A stretch of DNA of 42,327 nt from Blastocatellia bacterium. Its GTDB lineage: Bacteria > Acidobacteriota > Blastocatellia > HR10 > J050. The position numbers and the translations under genes were made by a program. The notes below the pieces were generated by a model, which worked only from the letters and a program-made list of their open reading frames with translations, had not been told where the DNA came from and ran no database searches. The stretch spans positions 1 to 42,327 of the forward strand of contig JALSQX010000049.1 in NCBI GenBank assembly GCA_026985075.1, written 5' to 3'. This document shows positions 2,601 through 26,200 of the stretch, in pieces (position 1 is the stretch's first letter; each line of letters opens with the position of its first letter).

Positions 2601-2644
2601 ACTTTACACCCTTCCTCTTCTGGCGCAACCATATGATCATATGC
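2601..2644 (-). promoter_or_regulatory. Predicted promoter with upstream palindrome for the FG-GAP protein gene
   Basis: On the minus strand TTGCGC (2628-2623) and TAAAGT (2606-2601) are separated by 16 nt. The palindromic 14-mer at 2631-2644 (ATATGATCATATGC on the plus strand) ends 2 nt upstream of the -35 box. The same spacing occurs at the response regulator promoter near 4.16 kb, so an activator site is likely. Confidence 0.5.
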
Positions 2645-2704
2645 TTTTTGGGGGAGGCGACCAGGAGCCGCCTCTCCGAAGTGGTGGAGCCTCTCCGTTC
2701 TCCG

Positions 2705-2812
2705 TGAATAGCCCACGGATGAACACGGAACCGGCGAGATCACCACCGATCACCCGCTGAGGAAAAATCTGTGCCCATCCCGCCTCTGGCTGTGAAGATC
2801 GGTGGACCATTC
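2705..2812 (+). repeat. Module A palindromic intergenic repeat, copy 1
   Basis: This is an imperfect ~105-bp inverted repeat. The left arm runs from the AATAGCCCACGG motif through GGCGAGAT. The right arm runs from AATCTGTG through ATCCCGCC to ATCGGTGGACCATTC. The two arms are largely complementary. C-type hairpins follow directly. Confidence 0.8.
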
Positions 2813-2940
2813 CCCGCTCAGGCCCCGGAGCTGGTCTCCGGGGTCCCTGACTGGCCAGCTACTCCTACCGCCACTCCCATCTTCTCAGAATGCCCCGCAG
2901 CTCGCCTCCGGGGATCGTTACCTCTCCCTAATAGCTCAGC
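2813..2940 (+). repeat. Module C hairpin repeats (two copies)
   Basis: Two C hairpins. The first has arms CCCCGGAG (2823-2830) and CTCCGGGG (2836-2843) around a 5-nt loop. The second starts near 2892 with CCCCGCAG and ends with CTCCGGGG. The linker between them (CCCTGACTGGCCAGCTACTCC) recurs at 11.4 kb, as does the tail TTACCTCTCCCTAATAGCTC. Confidence 0.75.
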
Positions 2941-3136
2941 ACCTGACCCCTCCCCACAGACAAGCTGTGGGGCTTCCTGGGTAGGGGGAGAGGGGACCAT
3001 CTCACTAGCCAACCACCTGACCCCTCCCCACAGACAAGCTGTGGGGCTTCCTGGGTAGGGGGAGAGGGGACCATCTCACTAGCCAACCACCTGACCCCTC
3101 CCCGCCGTCCGAGCCACAGGGCGTCCAAATGGTACA
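2941..3136 (+). repeat. Module B hairpin repeats: perfect 74-bp tandem duplication plus a third partial unit
   Basis: Units 2941-3014 and 3015-3088 are identical. Each begins ACCTGACCCCTCC and holds a perfect stem CCCCACAG/CTGTGGGG with a 5-nt loop, then a GGGGGAGAGGGG stretch and CACTAGCC. The third unit, from 3089, carries a different stem (GCCGTCCGAGCC type) and is cut short before the next A module. Confidence 0.8.
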
Positions 3137-3445
3137 GGGATCAACACCGAACCGGCGGAATCGACACCGATCACTCAAGGGGAGCAATCTGTGCGAATCC
3201 CGCCTCTCGCTGTGAGAATCGGTGGGCCGATTCAAATAGCCCACGGATCAACACCGAAACGGCGGGATCGGCACCGATCAAGTCCAGGAAAAATCTGTGT
3301 CCATCCCGCCTCTCGCCGTGTCAATCTGTGGGCCGATTCAAATAGCCCACGGATGAACACTGAAACGGCGGAAGCTGCACGGATAAACCAAACGAGGAAA
3401 TCTGTGCCCATCCCGCCTCTGGCTGCGTGAATCGGTGGGCGATTC
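3137..3445 (+). repeat. Module A palindromic repeats, three tandem copies (2-4)
   Basis: Three head-to-tail copies lie at about 3137-3233, 3234-3339 and 3340-3445. Each has CGGCGGGAT-like and ATCCCGCC cores, CACCGAT or CACGGAT paired with AATCTGTG, and a GGGC(C)GATTC end. The block stops about 20 nt from the stop codon of the response regulator gene, so it lies in its 3' flank. Confidence 0.8.
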
Positions 3446-3464
3446 CCTGCGCCCATCCGGGTGG

Positions 3465-4115
3465 CTATCGAATGAGGCCGCTTTTGAGCGCCTTGCGCAC
3501 CGCCTCGGCCTTGGAATGCACGTGCAGCTTGCGGTAAAGCTCCAGAATATACTTGCGCACCGTCCCAATGTGGATGTGGAAATGCTCGGCAATCATCTGA
3601 TAGGTCGCTCCCTCGGCCAGCATCTTGAGAAACTGAAGCTCGTGTGGCCTCAACCGATGCTCGATCTGCTCCGGCGGCCCCGTCTTCTGAAACAGTTGGA
3701 TCACCTTCCGGGCAATCTCCGGCGACATGGGCGCCCCGCCCTCATGCACTTCGCGGATGGCGTCCAGCAATCGTGCCGGCGGCGTCTTCTTCAACAGATA
3801 TCCCACCGCTCCATTACACAACGCCTCGAACACCCGCTCATCATCGGCGTAGACGGTCAGCATCAGAATCTGCAGCGACGGGTACCGCTCCTTCAGCAGG
3901 CGAACGCCCTCGGACCCCGAAATGCCTGGCAACCCGATGTCCACCAGCAGCACATCGGGCACGTTGAGAGGCATCTGCCTCAGGGCTTCTTCCACTGACC
4001 GCCACGCTCCCACACAGCGGTATCCCGGAGTCCCATCCAGCAACGCCACCAGAGCCTGGCGGGTCGTCTGCCGATCTTCGATGATGCCGACACGCACCTC
4101 ATTCTGTTGAACCAT
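3465..4115 (-). CDS. NarL/FixJ-type response regulator (REC + LuxR HTH)
   Basis: This 216-aa protein has a receiver domain at residues 7-122 with acidic residues E13/D14, phospho-acceptor D59 (LLVDIGLPG), switch T87 and K109/K110. A LuxR-type helix-turn-helix covers residues 153-215 (LAEGATYQMIAEHF, then GTVRKYILELYRKLHVHSKAEAV). It should bind DNA after phosphorylation by the HisKA_3-type kinase encoded just upstream on the same strand. AAGGAG precedes the ATG. The 291-nt gap to the kinase gene contains its own predicted promoter, so the regulator can probably be expressed independently. Target genes are not known; the shared palindrome suggests itself and the downstream FG-GAP gene. Confidence 0.93.
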   Translation of the reverse strand: MVQQNEVRVGIIEDRQTTRQALVALLDGTPGYRCVGAWRSVEEALRQMPLNVPDVLLVDIGLPGISGSEGVRLLKERYPSLQILMLTVYADDERVFEALCNGAVGYLLKKTPPARLLDAIREVHEGGAPMSPEIARKVIQLFQKTGPPEQIEHRLRPHELQFLKMLAEGATYQMIAEHFHIHIGTVRKYILELYRKLHVHSKAEAVRKALKSGLIR

Positions 4116-4131
4116 GAGCTCCTTTCAGCAT

Positions 4132-4176
4132 AGGATATCCACCCCCCACGGCGACGACAATGGTATGATCATATGC
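4132..4176 (-). promoter_or_regulatory. Predicted response regulator promoter with palindromic upstream site
   Basis: On the minus strand TTGTCG (4160-4155), a 17-nt spacer and TATCCT (4137-4132). The palindrome at 4163-4176 (GTATGATCATATGC on the plus strand) ends 2 nt upstream of the -35 box, the same position as at the FG-GAP gene promoter. The predicted leader is very short, about 10 nt, and begins with the Shine-Dalgarno sequence. Confidence 0.5.
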
Positions 4177-4406: not shown

Positions 4407-7400
4407 TCAATCAAGCGGCATGGTCAATCGAATGCGCGTTCCCTGACCCGGGATGGACATAATGTCTAACTGACCGCCGAGTTCTGCCGCTCGCTTCTGC
4501 ATATTCCCCAACCCATTTCCGCCCGATCTCTCCTCATTCTGTATGCGCCGGAGATCGAAACCTCGCCCATCATCCCGAATTTCGAGCCACAGGCGATGAT
4601 CACCCGTCCAGATGCGAATCCACACCGAACGGCACGCCGCATGGCGCAAGATATTATGCACCGCCTCCTTGACGATCAAATAGAGATGATGCCGCTGCTC
4701 GAAGCTGAGCTTGATCCGCTCCGGATGTGGAGGCAACTCAATGTAGCAGCCCACGCCGCTGGCTTCGAGCAGGTCCGACGCCAGGGCATGAATGCGAAAG
4801 ATCACATCCTGAAGCGCATCGCGTTGCGGATCAATCGACCACACAATGTCGCCCATGACACCTATTAATTGACGCGCGCGATCGGCAATCTGCGCGAGCG
4901 CGTCCCCGGCTTCTGGAACGGACGAGGCCACCCGTTGCTTGAGCACCTCGCTGAGCAACGCGATTTCTGAGAGGCTCGCGCCGATATCATCATGCAAATC
5001 GGTGGCAATGCGCGTGCGTATCCGCTCCAGTTGGAGCACCTGCCTCACGCGATAGCGGTGCAGCCCGTATCCGGCGCCGATGAGGGTCATGAAGACGAGC
5101 GCCACAAACCACCATCGTTGCCAGAGTGGCCGGAGGATGCGGAACGAGCATTCCGCCGGTTGGGCGCTGACCGTCCCATCCGGAGCGACGGCCCGCACCA
5201 GGAATCGATACGGGCCCGGCGCCAGTCGGGGGTAGGTGACCGATTGCTCCTCGCTCAGCGGACTCCAATCTCGATCTACGCCTTCCAGCTTGTATTGATA
5301 CCGGAGCGCCAGCCCGCCCTGAAACCACACGGCCGCGTACTCGATGCGCAGATGATTTTGACCGGCCGAGAGCGTCAGTGCAGGCAATCGGCGCGCGCCC
5401 CGCGGCAGTAGCAGCAGATCTTCTCCCGCCACCTGAACCCGCGTCAGGTAGATGGGCGGTGGGAGCGCCGTCATAGTCTCGGCCCGTGGCCTGAGCTTGG
5501 AGAGCCCCGCCGCCGTGCCAATCCACATGGTCCCCCGAGCGTCCTTGAAGCAATATCGGACTTGATCGCTCACTAACCCGTCATTGACCGTGAGACACTC
5601 CATCCGATTGGTCCGCGGATCGAACCGATTGAGCCCCCGCGCGGTACCCAGATAGATTCGGCCGAACTCGTCTTCGGCAATGGCCCCCACGGCATGACCC
5701 AACAAGCCATCCTCTATCGAGTAGTTGACAAACCGGGGATGAGCAGCAGTGGGATCTCTGGTCACTGAGACCCCCCGGTAGCGCAGGCCAATCCACAGCC
5801 ATCCGCGACTGTCCTGAAACAAGACGCGTGGCCGCGTCTCGGGCAATCCCTCGGTGGTTCGAAAGAGTTGGAACCGACCGTTTCGCCAGCGCCCGAAGTA
5901 TTCATGCCAGCCCAGCCAGAGCGCGCCCGAGCGGTCGACGAGCATCACGATGACCGGTGCGCGCGGCGCTCCCGCCAGGTTCACCGGCCAGCCTCGCGGT
6001 CGGCCATCGCTGTTCTGGAAGCGATATACGGTTCCATCCATCAGACCGACCAGAACGTCGCCGTCAGGAGCGCGATAAATCGTCGAAACCTCTACGGAAA
6101 GAAGGCGCTCACCGTCGGCCACCCGCAGTTCGGGGCCGGGGAAATAGTAGAGCCCTTCCTCTGTCCCGATCCACCAATGGCCATGACCGTCCTGGGTGAT
6201 CCGCCGTCTGATCTGATCAAACGGCGGCTTCTGGAATCCTCTGATCGGGCGAGCGCGATCATTCTGGATTTCGGCCAGTCCACCCAACGTGCTCAGCAGA
6301 ATCCGGCCGCTTCTCTCCTGCAGGATCTTCTGGACGCTCACATTGGGCAGCCCATCGGACTGAGTGAAATTGATTATTTGTTCTGGGGAAAGCCGGAAGA
6401 CGCCATTGCCACTCGTCCCGCCCCAGAGAATGCCTTCCCGCGTCCAGCAGAGGGACCAGATATCGTCGCTCGGCAGCCCATGAGCGACCGTGTAGAGTTG
6501 CTGATCGCCCGGCCGGTATCGGATGAGCCCTTTATTGGTGCCAATCCAGAGCGTCCCATCGGGCTCGGCGATCATCGCCTGAATGACCTGACCGGGATGA
6601 AGCTCGATCGGTAATGGCTCCCACGACCCCGCAGCGAGACCATCAGTAGCCTCCACGTATTGGAACACCGCGTCAGGCTGGGCCACCAGAAGGCGCCCTG
6701 AAGGATGTTCTATGATGCTCACGACTTCCCGCTCACCAACCGGGTTCTCGGCACCATATGTGATCATGCCATCCGAATCGAGCCGGAGCAATCCATGGCC
6801 CACGCCAAACCAGAGCCGACCCCACCGATCGGCCAGCGCCGCGCGAGGAAGGAAGCCATCAGGCTTCCGCTCGGAGATGCGCTCGAATCGAGGATGCTCA
6901 AGGGCGTCAGCCGGACAGCGATACAACCCACCATTGGTCAAGCACCAGAGATTGTTCTGGGAATCGAACAGCAGCTTGTTGACTCTGTTGGAGAGGACAT
7001 TCGGGCCGATCCGGTAGCTCACAAACAGCGAAGGTGATGATGCCGTGCAGGTCTCGGATGAACGCATCTCAATCGGCGGTTCAACCAATCGAGCGATGCC
7101 TCCTCCATTGGTGGCCACCCAGAGCCGCCCACGCCGATCTTCGACGATATCATTGATGATGAGATGCCCGAGACCATGCCGGACATCATAGTTGGTGAAG
7201 CGATGCCCATCGAAGCGACTGAGCCCTTCCCAGGTAGCGAACCACACATAGCCTCTGAAATCCTGATAGATGGACGAGATCGTCCCATTGGGGAGCCCTT
7301 CGGCCACTCCATAATGACGGATGGGAAGGTGCTGTGCCCGGACGGTCAGTCCCCACCCAGCGGCAGGAATCAACGAGAGCGTGGACACCACTATGAGGAT

Positions 7401-7427
7401 TGAGCGACTGAAGGCCGCGCTACTCAT
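4407..7427 (-). CDS. Propeller-type sensor histidine kinase (Reg_prop / Y_Y_Y / HisKA_3)
   Basis: This 1006-aa protein has a signal peptide or anchor at residues 1-31, then about 14 periplasmic two-component propeller motifs (for example DFRGYVWFATWEGLSRFDG, DSRGWLWIGLRYRG and DARGTMWIGTAAGLSKL) up to about residue 655. A Y_Y_Y domain follows (about 665-760), then one membrane helix (about 770-790). The HisKA_3 dimerisation box contains phospho-acceptor H812 (ATDLHDDIGASLSEIALLSEVL). A C-terminal HATPase_c domain has the N-box VKEAVHNILRHA, DDGRGFD and GNGLGNMQKRA. It should sense an external ligand, often a carbohydrate in this architecture, and phosphorylate the adjacent LuxR-type regulator. 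Unlike BACON-type hybrid regulators it carries no fused receiver. GGGGAGGGG lies just before the ATG. Confidence 0.93.
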   Translation of the reverse strand: MSSAAFSRSILIVVSTLSLIPAAGWGLTVRAQHLPIRHYGVAEGLPNGTISSIYQDFRGYVWFATWEGLSRFDGHRFTNYDVRHGLGHLIINDIVEDRRGRLWVATNGGGIARLVEPPIEMRSSETCTASSPSLFVSYRIGPNVLSNRVNKLLFDSQNNLWCLTNGGLYRCPADALEHPRFERISERKPDGFLPRAALADRWGRLWFGVGHGLLRLDSDGMITYGAENPVGEREVVSIIEHPSGRLLVAQPDAVFQYVEATDGLAAGSWEPLPIELHPGQVIQAMIAEPDGTLWIGTNKGLIRYRPGDQQLYTVAHGLPSDDIWSLCWTREGILWGGTSGNGVFRLSPEQIINFTQSDGLPNVSVQKILQERSGRILLSTLGGLAEIQNDRARPIRGFQKPPFDQIRRRITQDGHGHWWIGTEEGLYYFPGPELRVADGERLLSVEVSTIYRAPDGDVLVGLMDGTVYRFQNSDGRPRGWPVNLAGAPRAPVIVMLVDRSGALWLGWHEYFGRWRNGRFQLFRTTEGLPETRPRVLFQDSRGWLWIGLRYRGVSVTRDPTAAHPRFVNYSIEDGLLGHAVGAIAEDEFGRIYLGTARGLNRFDPRTNRMECLTVNDGLVSDQVRYCFKDARGTMWIGTAAGLSKLRPRAETMTALPPPIYLTRVQVAGEDLLLLPRGARRLPALTLSAGQNHLRIEYAAVWFQGGLALRYQYKLEGVDRDWSPLSEEQSVTYPRLAPGPYRFLVRAVAPDGTVSAQPAECSFRILRPLWQRWWFVALVFMTLIGAGYGLHRYRVRQVLQLERIRTRIATDLHDDIGASLSEIALLSEVLKQRVASSVPEAGDALAQIADRARQLIGVMGDIVWSIDPQRDALQDVIFRIHALASDLLEASGVGCYIELPPHPERIKLSFEQRHHLYLIVKEAVHNILRHAACRSVWIRIWTGDHRLWLEIRDDGRGFDLRRIQNEERSGGNGLGNMQKRAAELGGQLDIMSIPGQGTRIRLTMPLD

Positions 7428-8828: not shown

Positions 8829-8930
8829 GAATGGCTCACAGAGTGCCACCGAAACGGCGGGATCGACACCGATCAAGGGGAGAAATCTGTGCGAATCCCG
8901 CCTCTGGCTGCGTGAATCTGTGAACAATGT
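8829..8930 (+). repeat. Module A repeat, copy 5 (degenerate ends)
   Basis: The core CGGCGGGATCGACACCGATC and its complement (AATCTGTG, then ATCCCGCC) are intact. The outer arms have diverged (GAATGGCTCACAGAG at left, GTGAACAATGTC at right). Confidence 0.75.
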
Positions 8931-11256: not shown

Positions 11257-11362
11257 AAGTAGCACACAGATCGGCACAGAAACGGCGGGAGCTACACGGA
11301 TAAACCAAACGAGGAAATCTGTGCTCATCCCGCCTTTCGCTGTGAGAATCTGTGGGCCGTTC
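11257..11362 (+). repeat. Module A repeat, copy 7
   Basis: Full-length copy with CGGCGGGAGCTACACGGAT in the left arm and AATCTGTGCTCATCCCGCC in the right arm, ending TGTGGGCCGTTC. It is inserted between a truncated B unit and two C units. Confidence 0.8.
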
Positions 11363-11780: not shown

Positions 11781-12071
11781 ATGCGGAAAGTGACCCTTCG
11801 GTATAGCAAAACCTCCGAACCTTCTGCCGCCAAGGCCCACAAGGCCCTGCGAGAGGCGGTCCAGCAGGTGAGTGTGCAAGAAAGCATTCAGGCGCTAGTC
11901 CAGCAGTTGACACAATTTGAAGCGCAGTTTGGAATGAGCACCGTCGAGTTTTACACCAAATACCTGGCCGGGAGAATGGGTGACCGTCAAGCCGTCATGG
12001 AGTGGGCCGGGGCTTATGAGGAGTACATGTATCTTGTGCAGCGGTACGGCCACAAGATAGCCCAATCCTGA
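11781..12071 (+). CDS. Probable antitoxin of a TumE-like module
   Basis: This 96-aa, mostly helical protein (AKAHKALREAVQQVSVQESIQALVQQLTQFEAQFGMSTVEFY) has no clear DNA-binding motif. It is called an antitoxin because it is the first gene of a two-gene operon whose second product resembles TumE toxins and because the genes overlap by one base (TGATG). The segment FGMSTVEFYTKYLAGRMGDRQAVMEWAGAYE resembles a family of small partner proteins of such toxins. Function is inferred from context. Confidence 0.6.
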   Translation: MRKVTLRYSKTSEPSAAKAHKALREAVQQVSVQESIQALVQQLTQFEAQFGMSTVEFYTKYLAGRMGDRQAVMEWAGAYEEYMYLVQRYGHKIAQS

Positions 12072-12457
12072 TGAAGACGATCGACCAGTACTTTGACATC
12101 ATCGACAGCGCCATCCGCCACAGCGCCGTACAAGATGTGGAAATCACTTACACTGTGAGTAGTCCCACCTCGGGCACCATCAGCGCAAAATTGATGTTCC
12201 CAGACAACTCGCGCCTGGAGGTTTTTGAAAAAGTGATAATACGGGCTGACCGTCCCATAAAGGACAAGTATCGGTATCAGTATCTCAGAGCAAGACGCAC
12301 AATCTTCCGCTATGACAATTCACCGCACCATCCCGGATTGCCGAACTTTCCCCACCACAAGCACATGGGACGTAGGGTTGTGGGAGCCACCGAACCTATG
12401 CTCGGCCAGGTCCTCAAGGAAATCGCAACGCTCCTGGAACGGGAAGGAACGACGTGA
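12071..12457 (+). CDS. TumE-like (DUF6516) putative toxin
   Basis: This 128-aa protein has the block YRYQYLRARRTIFRYDNSPHHPGLPNFPHHKH (residues 68-98), which I recognise as the signature of the TumE/DUF6516 toxin family. Conserved tyrosine, arginine and several histidines could form an active or metal-binding site. The biochemical activity is not known to me. It overlaps its upstream partner by one base and is the third two-gene module of the island. Confidence 0.7.
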   Translation: MKTIDQYFDIIDSAIRHSAVQDVEITYTVSSPTSGTISAKLMFPDNSRLEVFEKVIIRADRPIKDKYRYQYLRARRTIFRYDNSPHHPGLPNFPHHKHMGRRVVGATEPMLGQVLKEIATLLEREGTT

Positions 12458-12766
12458 GCCATACACCCGATGACCGGAACCGCACACCGGGCTGACGGTT
12501 CACGCTCGTTACTTCCCTCACGGACACGACCCGTTATCATCGATGTTCCGATCCAGGATGCTCCCCAACTCTGGCCCCCGCACCGTGGTCAACTGCGCCG
12601 TCCCTCATCCACCGCAAGAGCGAGACATCGCCCTGTAAAACCTCTCCGCTCATGGTTCCTCCTCATCCCTCTACGGCGCAAAACCGACGGACGGCAACAT
12701 CATACGCCGCCAGCGTTTCAGCGAGACCATATGGTCATATGCCCTCTCTGGCTCCGACTCAGGAGC
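12458..12766. other. Intergenic stretch without recognised gene
   Basis: I see no credible gene here. The only distinct element is a copy of the palindromic 14-mer ATATGGTCATATGC at 12729-12742, not next to a promoter-like sequence. The composition resembles degraded repeat or gene remnants. Confidence 0.4.
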
Positions 12767-12975
12767 GAAATAGCCCATCGATGCACACAGCGGGATGCTC
12801 ACTGATCAGCCAAGGAGGGAAATCCATGTAAATCCCGCTTTTCACTGTGATAATCTGTGGGCTATTCAGGAACGGCACACAGATCAACGCCGAAACGGCG
12901 GGATCACCACCGATCAACCAAAAGGGAAAATCTGTGCTCATCCCGCCTCTCGCTGTGAGAATCTGTGGGCCGTTC
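12767..12975 (+). repeat. Module A repeats, two tandem copies (8-9)
   Basis: Copy 8 (12767-12867) is diverged (CAGCGGGAT left, AATCCATGTAAATCCCGC right). Copy 9 (12868-12975) is close to consensus. A left-arm remnant (ACACCGAACCGGCGGAATC) continues to about 13010. Confidence 0.8.
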
Positions 12976-13993: not shown

Positions 13994-14207
13994 AAATAGC
14001 CCACGGATGAACACAGAAACGGCGGGATCTGCACGGATAAACCAAAAGAGGAAATCTGTGCGAATCCCGCCTCTGGCTGTGTCAATCTCTGGGCCGATTC
14101 AAATAGCCCACGGATCAACACAGAAACGGCGGGATCACCACAGATCAATCCCCCGGGAAAAATCTGTGCCCATCCCGCCTCTCGCTGTGAAGATCGGTGG
14201 GCCATTC
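13994..14207 (+). repeat. Module A repeats, two tandem copies (10-11)
   Basis: Both copies are near consensus. In copy 11 the complementary cores are GGCGGGAT at 14128-14135 with ATCCCGCC at 14172-14179, and CACAGAT at 14139-14145 with ATCTGTG at 14162-14168, around a 16-nt loop. They separate the toxin-antitoxin island from the trehalose operon. Confidence 0.85.
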
Positions 14208-26057: not shown

Positions 26058-26200
26058 CTCATCCCGCCTCCCGCTGTGAGGATTTGTGGGTGATGAATGG
26101 CCCACTGATGCATGCAGAGACGGCGAGATCACCACAGATCAACCGGGAGGGACAATCCGTGTAAATCCCGCCTTTCGCTGTGAAGATCTGTGGACCATTC
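26058..26200 (+). repeat. Module A right half (14) plus full copy (15)
   Basis: A right-arm fragment (CTCATCCCGCCTCCCGCTGTGAGG) ends at about 26094. The full copy 26095-26200 has CGGCGAGATCACCACAGATC left and GTAAATCCCGCC right. Confidence 0.75.

Follow-up and report, generated by a model that had tools for sequence, protein, structure and literature searches.

Genes and candidate operators at the locus

The locus described here lies at the end of contig C49 of genome G000 (5,195,638 bases, 5.2 Mb), from a Blastocatellia bacterium, where a propeller-type sensor kinase, a response regulator and a predicted surface protein are encoded one after the other and where short palindromes, which we treat as candidate operators, precede the last two genes; the whole contig of 42,327 nucleotides (nt) was analysed and is referred to as the window. 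All three genes are on the minus strand, in the order kinase (7427-4407), response regulator (4115-3465) and FG-GAP/beta-helix-like surface protein (2546 to the contig end). The kinase (P0002, 1006 amino acids, aa) carries two-component-regulator propeller (Reg_prop) repeats, Y_Y_Y, HisKA_3 and HATPase_c within one protein, as is typical of propeller sensor histidine kinases, and the regulator (P0001, 216 aa) consists of a receiver domain (Response_reg, 4.9e-22) followed by a LuxR/NarL-type helix-turn-helix (HTH) domain (GerE, 2.8e-10), which is the domain layout of the NarL/FixJ type. The third gene (3-2546), the candidate target, encodes a predicted secreted protein of at least 848 aa that is open at the contig end and has FG-GAP_3 and FG-GAP domains. 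Between the FG-GAP and regulator genes a stretch of about 70 bases (ACCTGACCCCTCCCCACAGACAAGCTGTGGGGCTTCCTGGG...) is tandemly repeated (about 2938-3100), and a partial copy of the FG-GAP 5' coding region, 96% identical, is found at a contig end elsewhere in the genome (G000:C63:38106-38387, or L191:807-1088), where the upstream sequence is different and lacks the operator.

The preliminary description of this DNA had placed a 13-mer upstream of both the FG-GAP and the response-regulator genes, and GCATATGATCATA is indeed matched exactly at both on the minus strand, at 2632-2644 and 4164-4176. Operator 1, CATATGATCATATG (2630-2643, minus strand), upstream of the FG-GAP gene, is a perfect 14-bp palindrome with the core TATGATCATA at 2632-2641, and operator 2, CATATGATCATACC (4162-4175, minus strand), upstream of the regulator gene and putatively autoregulatory, is palindromic across the 10 bp of the same core (4164-4173) and has two mismatches to the 14-mer of operator 1; both are proposed as operators on the basis of their palindromy and of the genome counts given below. 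Read on the minus strand, the two sites run GCATATGATCATAT-GG-TTGCGC and GCATATGATCATAC-CA-TTGTCG, and GCATATGATCATAY stops 2 nt short of a TTG of a -35-like box at both promoters, in agreement with the earlier claim that the 14-mer ends 2 nt before the -35 box in each case. A TA---T box then follows 25 or 26 nt 3' of the core. Core promoter 1 (2601-2628, minus strand) is formed by the -35-like TTGCGC (2628-2623) and the -10-like TAAAGT (2606-2601), 25 nt after the core, and core promoter 2 (4132-4160, minus strand) by TTGTCG (4160-4155), a 17-nt spacer and TATCCT (4137-4132), 26 nt after the core. Both pairs of boxes are weak; neither promoter appears in a consensus scan requiring at least 9 of 12 matching positions. 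A candidate site that abuts a weak -35 box at a fixed spacing is the arrangement seen in activator-dependent class II promoters. The kinase gene is without an operator of this kind.

A search of the 5,195,638 bases of the genome that allows up to two mismatches finds the 14-mer palindrome 7 times, 3 of them inside the window (reversed control, 0), and when promoter geometry is included, as TATGNNCATA-N25/26-TANNNT, there are 3 genome matches, all in the window and all on the minus strand (reversed control, 1). A genome search for the palindrome at promoter spacing had been suggested as a check in the preliminary description, and it restricts the geometry-correct copies to this locus. Within the window alone, allowing three mismatches gives 11 matches to the 13-mer (6.75 expected; equalled or exceeded by 12 of 100 shuffles) and 4 matches to the 14-mer (1.2 expected; equalled or exceeded by 3 of 100 shuffles). 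A palindrome match with one mismatch at G000:C42:42075 was set aside, as it is absent from the promoter-geometry matches. Paralogues of the FG-GAP gene were likewise rejected as extra targets: among five such regions (four in G000 and one in G001, a genome of the same genus), three have only coding sequence in common with the region around the target's promoter and gene start and two share nothing, and three core types are absent from the four of these regions that were scanned for them.

A third site, additional to the two of the preliminary description, has the same core-to--10 geometry. Operator 3, CATATGACCATATG (12728-12741, minus strand; core 12730-12739), is followed 25 nt after the core by the -10-like TATGAT (12704-12699), with no TTG at -35, and further downstream by a stretch resembling a ribosome-binding site and by an ATG (12653). 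From this ATG the reading frame passes directly into the terminal (3') part of a large surface-protein gene, where one extra base shifts it and leaves a 38-aa open reading frame (ORF; 12537-12653, minus strand). Between 12514 and 12647 the sequence shares 77-79% identity with the 3' gene ends at C33:161820, C80:115169 and C80:110459. We read operator 3 as the likely promoter element of a surface-protein gene that has since been deleted down to its two ends, and the remnant may also be an assembly error. An exact 23-base match of the start region of site 3 at C74 was discarded as an unrelated start-codon context. The large HYR-like surface genes of G000 have in common a C-terminal end, conserved over about 43 codons, which is found at the C33 and C80 positions named above. 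A small plus-strand ORF (12071-12457) adjoins operator 3, with another small ORF directly before it; we take this pair to resemble the toxin-antitoxin type (DUF6516-like), and it may mark an insertion that disrupted the old surface gene. In addition, the window has 10 copies, each on the plus strand, of a dispersed intergenic repeat (CGGCGGGATC--CACCGATCA with its flanks; 0.05 expected), at 2732-3280, 8855-8875, 11283-11303, 12788-12916, 14020-14147 and 26121-26141, and a contig of the same-genus genome (G001:C406) begins with sequence resembling it.

Promoter geometry and paired candidate operators among homologous regulators

Besides the window's own regulator, 47 homologues were found at E 2.7e-50 or better, of which 40, including two paralogues in G000, were taken and 7 left out. 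A second, named set comprised 80 loci of 511 relatives, 2 without upstream sequence and 11 duplicating earlier loci, so that the homologues, the window and the named set made up 108 loci in total, 102 usable for the pair test and 100 for the helix test described below. The homologues span several phyla; the named relatives are mostly from Acidobacteria metagenome assemblies, the closest among the matches listed being Acidobacteria bacterium J050. In 81 of the 101 loci with room for it, a same-strand kinase homologous to that of the window precedes the regulator and ends no more than 900 nt before it.

In the 200 nt upstream of 41 regulators, including the window's, a palindromic motif, cGCATAatTATGCg, was found with a log-likelihood of 82, compared with 28-37 in five shuffles. 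The named set (78 loci, 11 in common with the first) gave cGCATgatcATGCg at 80, compared with 27-38 when shuffled, and without the 11 shared loci it gave cGCATaattATGCg at 67, a value that has no shuffle control of its own. A clear motif is present upstream of the regulator in 31 of the 108 loci, and in 26 of these 31 sites TAnnnT begins 25-27 nt downstream of the core, where a background rate of 0.012 per position predicts about 1.1; TG is found at +3 or +4 in 22 of them. The conserved spacing bears on the view that the sites belong to a dispersed intergenic repeat or arose by coincidence and have no regulatory role, which could be entertained given that dispersed repeats do occur in the intergenic regions here and that operator 3 adjoins them. 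With only the 7 genome places mentioned above, mutually dissimilar flanks at the three operators and a -10 spacing that is kept among homologues from several phyla, we regard that view as very improbable.

The same geometry recurs downstream of the regulator. With the motif matrix, a site before the regulator and a site before the following gene are detected in seven loci, all of which have a kinase-sized gene (1035-1085 aa) before the regulator. In a matrix-free pair test, 14-mers in promoter geometry upstream and downstream of each regulator were compared, and the mean score within a locus was 10.11, compared with 8.82 (sd 0.14) in shuffled pairings, with none of 2000 permutations reaching the observed value. 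The effect is strongest for the 25/26 spacing, where z is 10.0; at spacings of 18-31 it takes intermediate values, since the 14-mers there overlap the operator. A score of at least 16 is reached by the own pair in 16 of 102 loci (1.2 expected) and by 30 of 2550 mismatched pairings; two of the 16 high-scoring loci, L153 and L154, are AT-rich and less convincing. Operators vary among loci and agree within them, as in TGCCAGTACTGGCG, found twice at G025:C315, TACCCAAATAGGCG, found twice at L133, AGCATATCTATGC at L093 and TATGATCATA in the window. The proposal that the regulon has two targets, the regulator gene and the adjoining surface-protein gene, is backed by these homologue promoters and by locus-matched downstream copies in excess of mismatched pairings.

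For 23 loci the second gene was chosen by an automatic procedure, with a start or frame that looks incorrect in several. In 14 of the 23 the N-terminus is strongly hydrophobic (mean hydropathy of at least 2 over 12 residues), the remainder including likely mis-called frames. Pfam was run on ten of the proteins, namely the window's target and nine others, and FG-GAP was found in the targets of the window and L133. The target of L066, to which the window's FG-GAP protein is 45% identical across 240 aa, has Calx-beta, DUF4214 and a weak beta-helix match, and CARDB (L063), Big_7 (L043), Sortilin-Vps10 (L162), DUF4440 (L093) and DUF6623 (L042) were found in others; the L065 target has a CHU_C match below the cut-off, and the L132 target has no Pfam domain match. 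In 19 genomes other than G000 the exact-core pattern occurs in three places. One is in G001, where a different secreted protein is encoded behind a promoter of the window type, with identity over GCATATGATCATATGGTTG; the match in G006 lies within an ORF, and that in G017 within an opposite-strand-compatible ORF region.

Probable binding protein and direction of regulation

From its position and geometry, the palindrome is quite probably the operator of the adjacent NarL/LuxR-type regulator, which would activate its own gene and that of the adjacent secreted FG-GAP/beta-helix protein. Further evidence comes from the recognition helix of the regulators, for which a partial Mantel test across 100 loci, using five residues that we presume to be contacts from NarL contact positions, relates these residues to operator similarity beyond overall relatedness (r 0.13; 1 of 1000 permutations); no paper on these contact positions was found in the literature searched. 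The best single columns are 191, 187, 195 and 184, in or beside the recognition helix, and residue 191 is Leu in the window regulator and Arg, Lys or Gln in the other aligned homologues. The outermost base pair at either side of the window core TATGATCATA departs from the homologue motif, and Leu191 coincides with this change, which is a single case. By eye, among the 108 loci, the helix SYNTIKFH goes with ACCCA-GGGTG, NTVSFH with TACCT-AGGTA and TTVAFHM with CGTCT-AGACG, a pairing of classes that is a possible recognition code. The evidence for covariation of operator and recognition helix is mixed, as the test was borderline when the whole helix was used (51 of 1000), and gave 212 of 2000 on a smaller automatic set and 1899 and 964 of 5000 on the 21 best pairs; receiver-domain similarity alone predicts operator similarity too, as expected from common descent.

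These last results weigh against the proposed role of the regulator, as do several others. A clear GCAT-type motif is missing from 77 of the 108 loci, and the homologue-derived matrix scores the diverged core of the window poorly, which was recognised through geometry and palindromicity and not by the matrix. The pair test gives z 2.6-4.7 even at unrelated spacings, values that we take as a composition baseline. The predicted regulator transcript has a very short leader of about 10 nt. Finally, G001 has the promoter, yet its best match to the window regulator is only 65% identical, so that the true partner may be missing from the assembly, or a related regulator may serve.

The three helix tests that failed (automatic set, 21 best pairs and whole helix) would also fit sites that belong to another DNA-binding protein, with the regulator gene as merely one of its targets. 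However, the geometry-correct pattern in G000 is restricted to the neighbourhood of the regulator, and operators change locus by locus with the local regulator, which a single global factor would not explain; another binding protein is considered improbable. Somewhat less remote, though still unlikely, is the case in which the regulator does bind here but acts as a repressor, or plays a mixed part that includes autorepression of its own gene. A dimer abutting the -35 box could obstruct the polymerase as well, and operator 2 adjoins a -35 box that is not hopeless, with TTGTCG, a 17-nt spacer and TATCCT. Against repression, the quality of the -35 boxes is poor, the site lies upstream of the box, not over it, and the spacing kept in 26 of 31 sites is as expected for activators that touch the polymerase.

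Proposed mechanism and relation to known systems

The sites, their geometry, their restriction to this locus in G000 and the matching arrangement at homologous regulators, with a second site downstream, are read directly from the DNA, and from them we infer binding, phosphorylation, activation, transcription starts and a sensed ligand. In the proposed system, the propeller kinase would sense an external ligand and phosphorylate the regulator, a phosphorylated dimer of which would occupy the 10-bp inverted repeat just upstream of the weak -35 box, centred near -43, and recruit RNA polymerase in the manner of a class II activator. The regulator would in this way activate its own gene, as positive feedback, together with that of the neighbouring secreted FG-GAP/beta-helix protein, and operator 3 may formerly have served another surface-protein gene. 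Since the kinase gene has no operator and the site lies between the kinase and regulator genes, feedback would raise the regulator alone. Because the geometry and the pairing recur in homologues, the window locus may be one case of a family-wide design, which appears to consist of a propeller kinase, an autoregulated NarL/LuxR-type regulator, an adjacent and often secreted protein, and private operators.

Autoregulated NarL/FixJ-type regulators and class II (lux-box-like) activation are characterized by a LuxR-type HTH, an inverted repeat beside the -35 box and positive feedback. The system proposed here is similar in its LuxR-type HTH, its inverted repeat beside -35 and its proposed positive feedback, and differs in that the operator lies between the kinase and regulator genes and in that the operators are private to each paralogue.

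Two papers describe hybrid two-component systems (HTCS) of Bacteroides that control adjacent polysaccharide-utilisation loci (PMC3878776, PMC11253607), whose COG3292 sensors bind oligosaccharides (PMC3878776). By likeness to these sensors, an oligosaccharide would be our guess for the signal sensed here. Both designs have numerous paralogous sensors of the propeller type, COG3292 in Bacteroides and Reg_prop/Y_Y_Y in the present case, each of them presumed to govern neighbouring genes for secreted or surface proteins via its own DNA motif (PMC3878776, PMC11253607). The HTCS has sensor, kinase and regulator in one polypeptide, an AraC-type DNA-binding domain and a direct-repeat operator with a long spacer, whereas here the kinase (4407-7427) and regulator (3465-4115) are separate genes, the DNA-binding domain is GerE (NarL/LuxR-type), the operator is a short inverted repeat whose separation from the -10 box is constant, and one also precedes the regulator gene. 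In the literature searched, which covered few subscription papers, no combination of a split propeller kinase, a NarL-type regulator, private fixed-spacing palindromes and a local target was found, nor a described DNA motif for this regulator class. We rate each part as being of a known kind and the Bacteroides HTCS as the nearest described design.

On balance, we lean slightly towards a large propeller-kinase/NarL-type family, in Acidobacteriota and Ignavibacteria-like phyla, in which one promoter geometry has been kept and operators have diversified by paralogue, with the promoters of the regulator and the adjacent gene changing in step, so that each pair would act locally and in an insulated way as the switch for a single neighbouring protein, in many cases a secreted one. 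If this is true, the regulator class gains a DNA site and candidate targets, and the rule of a palindrome followed after 25-27 nt by TAnnnT, before the regulator and the next gene, would predict operators and targets in uncultured bacteria. The family would then be a naturally occurring collection from which to work out the code by which NarL-type helices recognize DNA, and two questions would become testable, namely how paralogous regulators are insulated at the level of DNA and what purpose is served by the large, apparently controlled secreted proteins.
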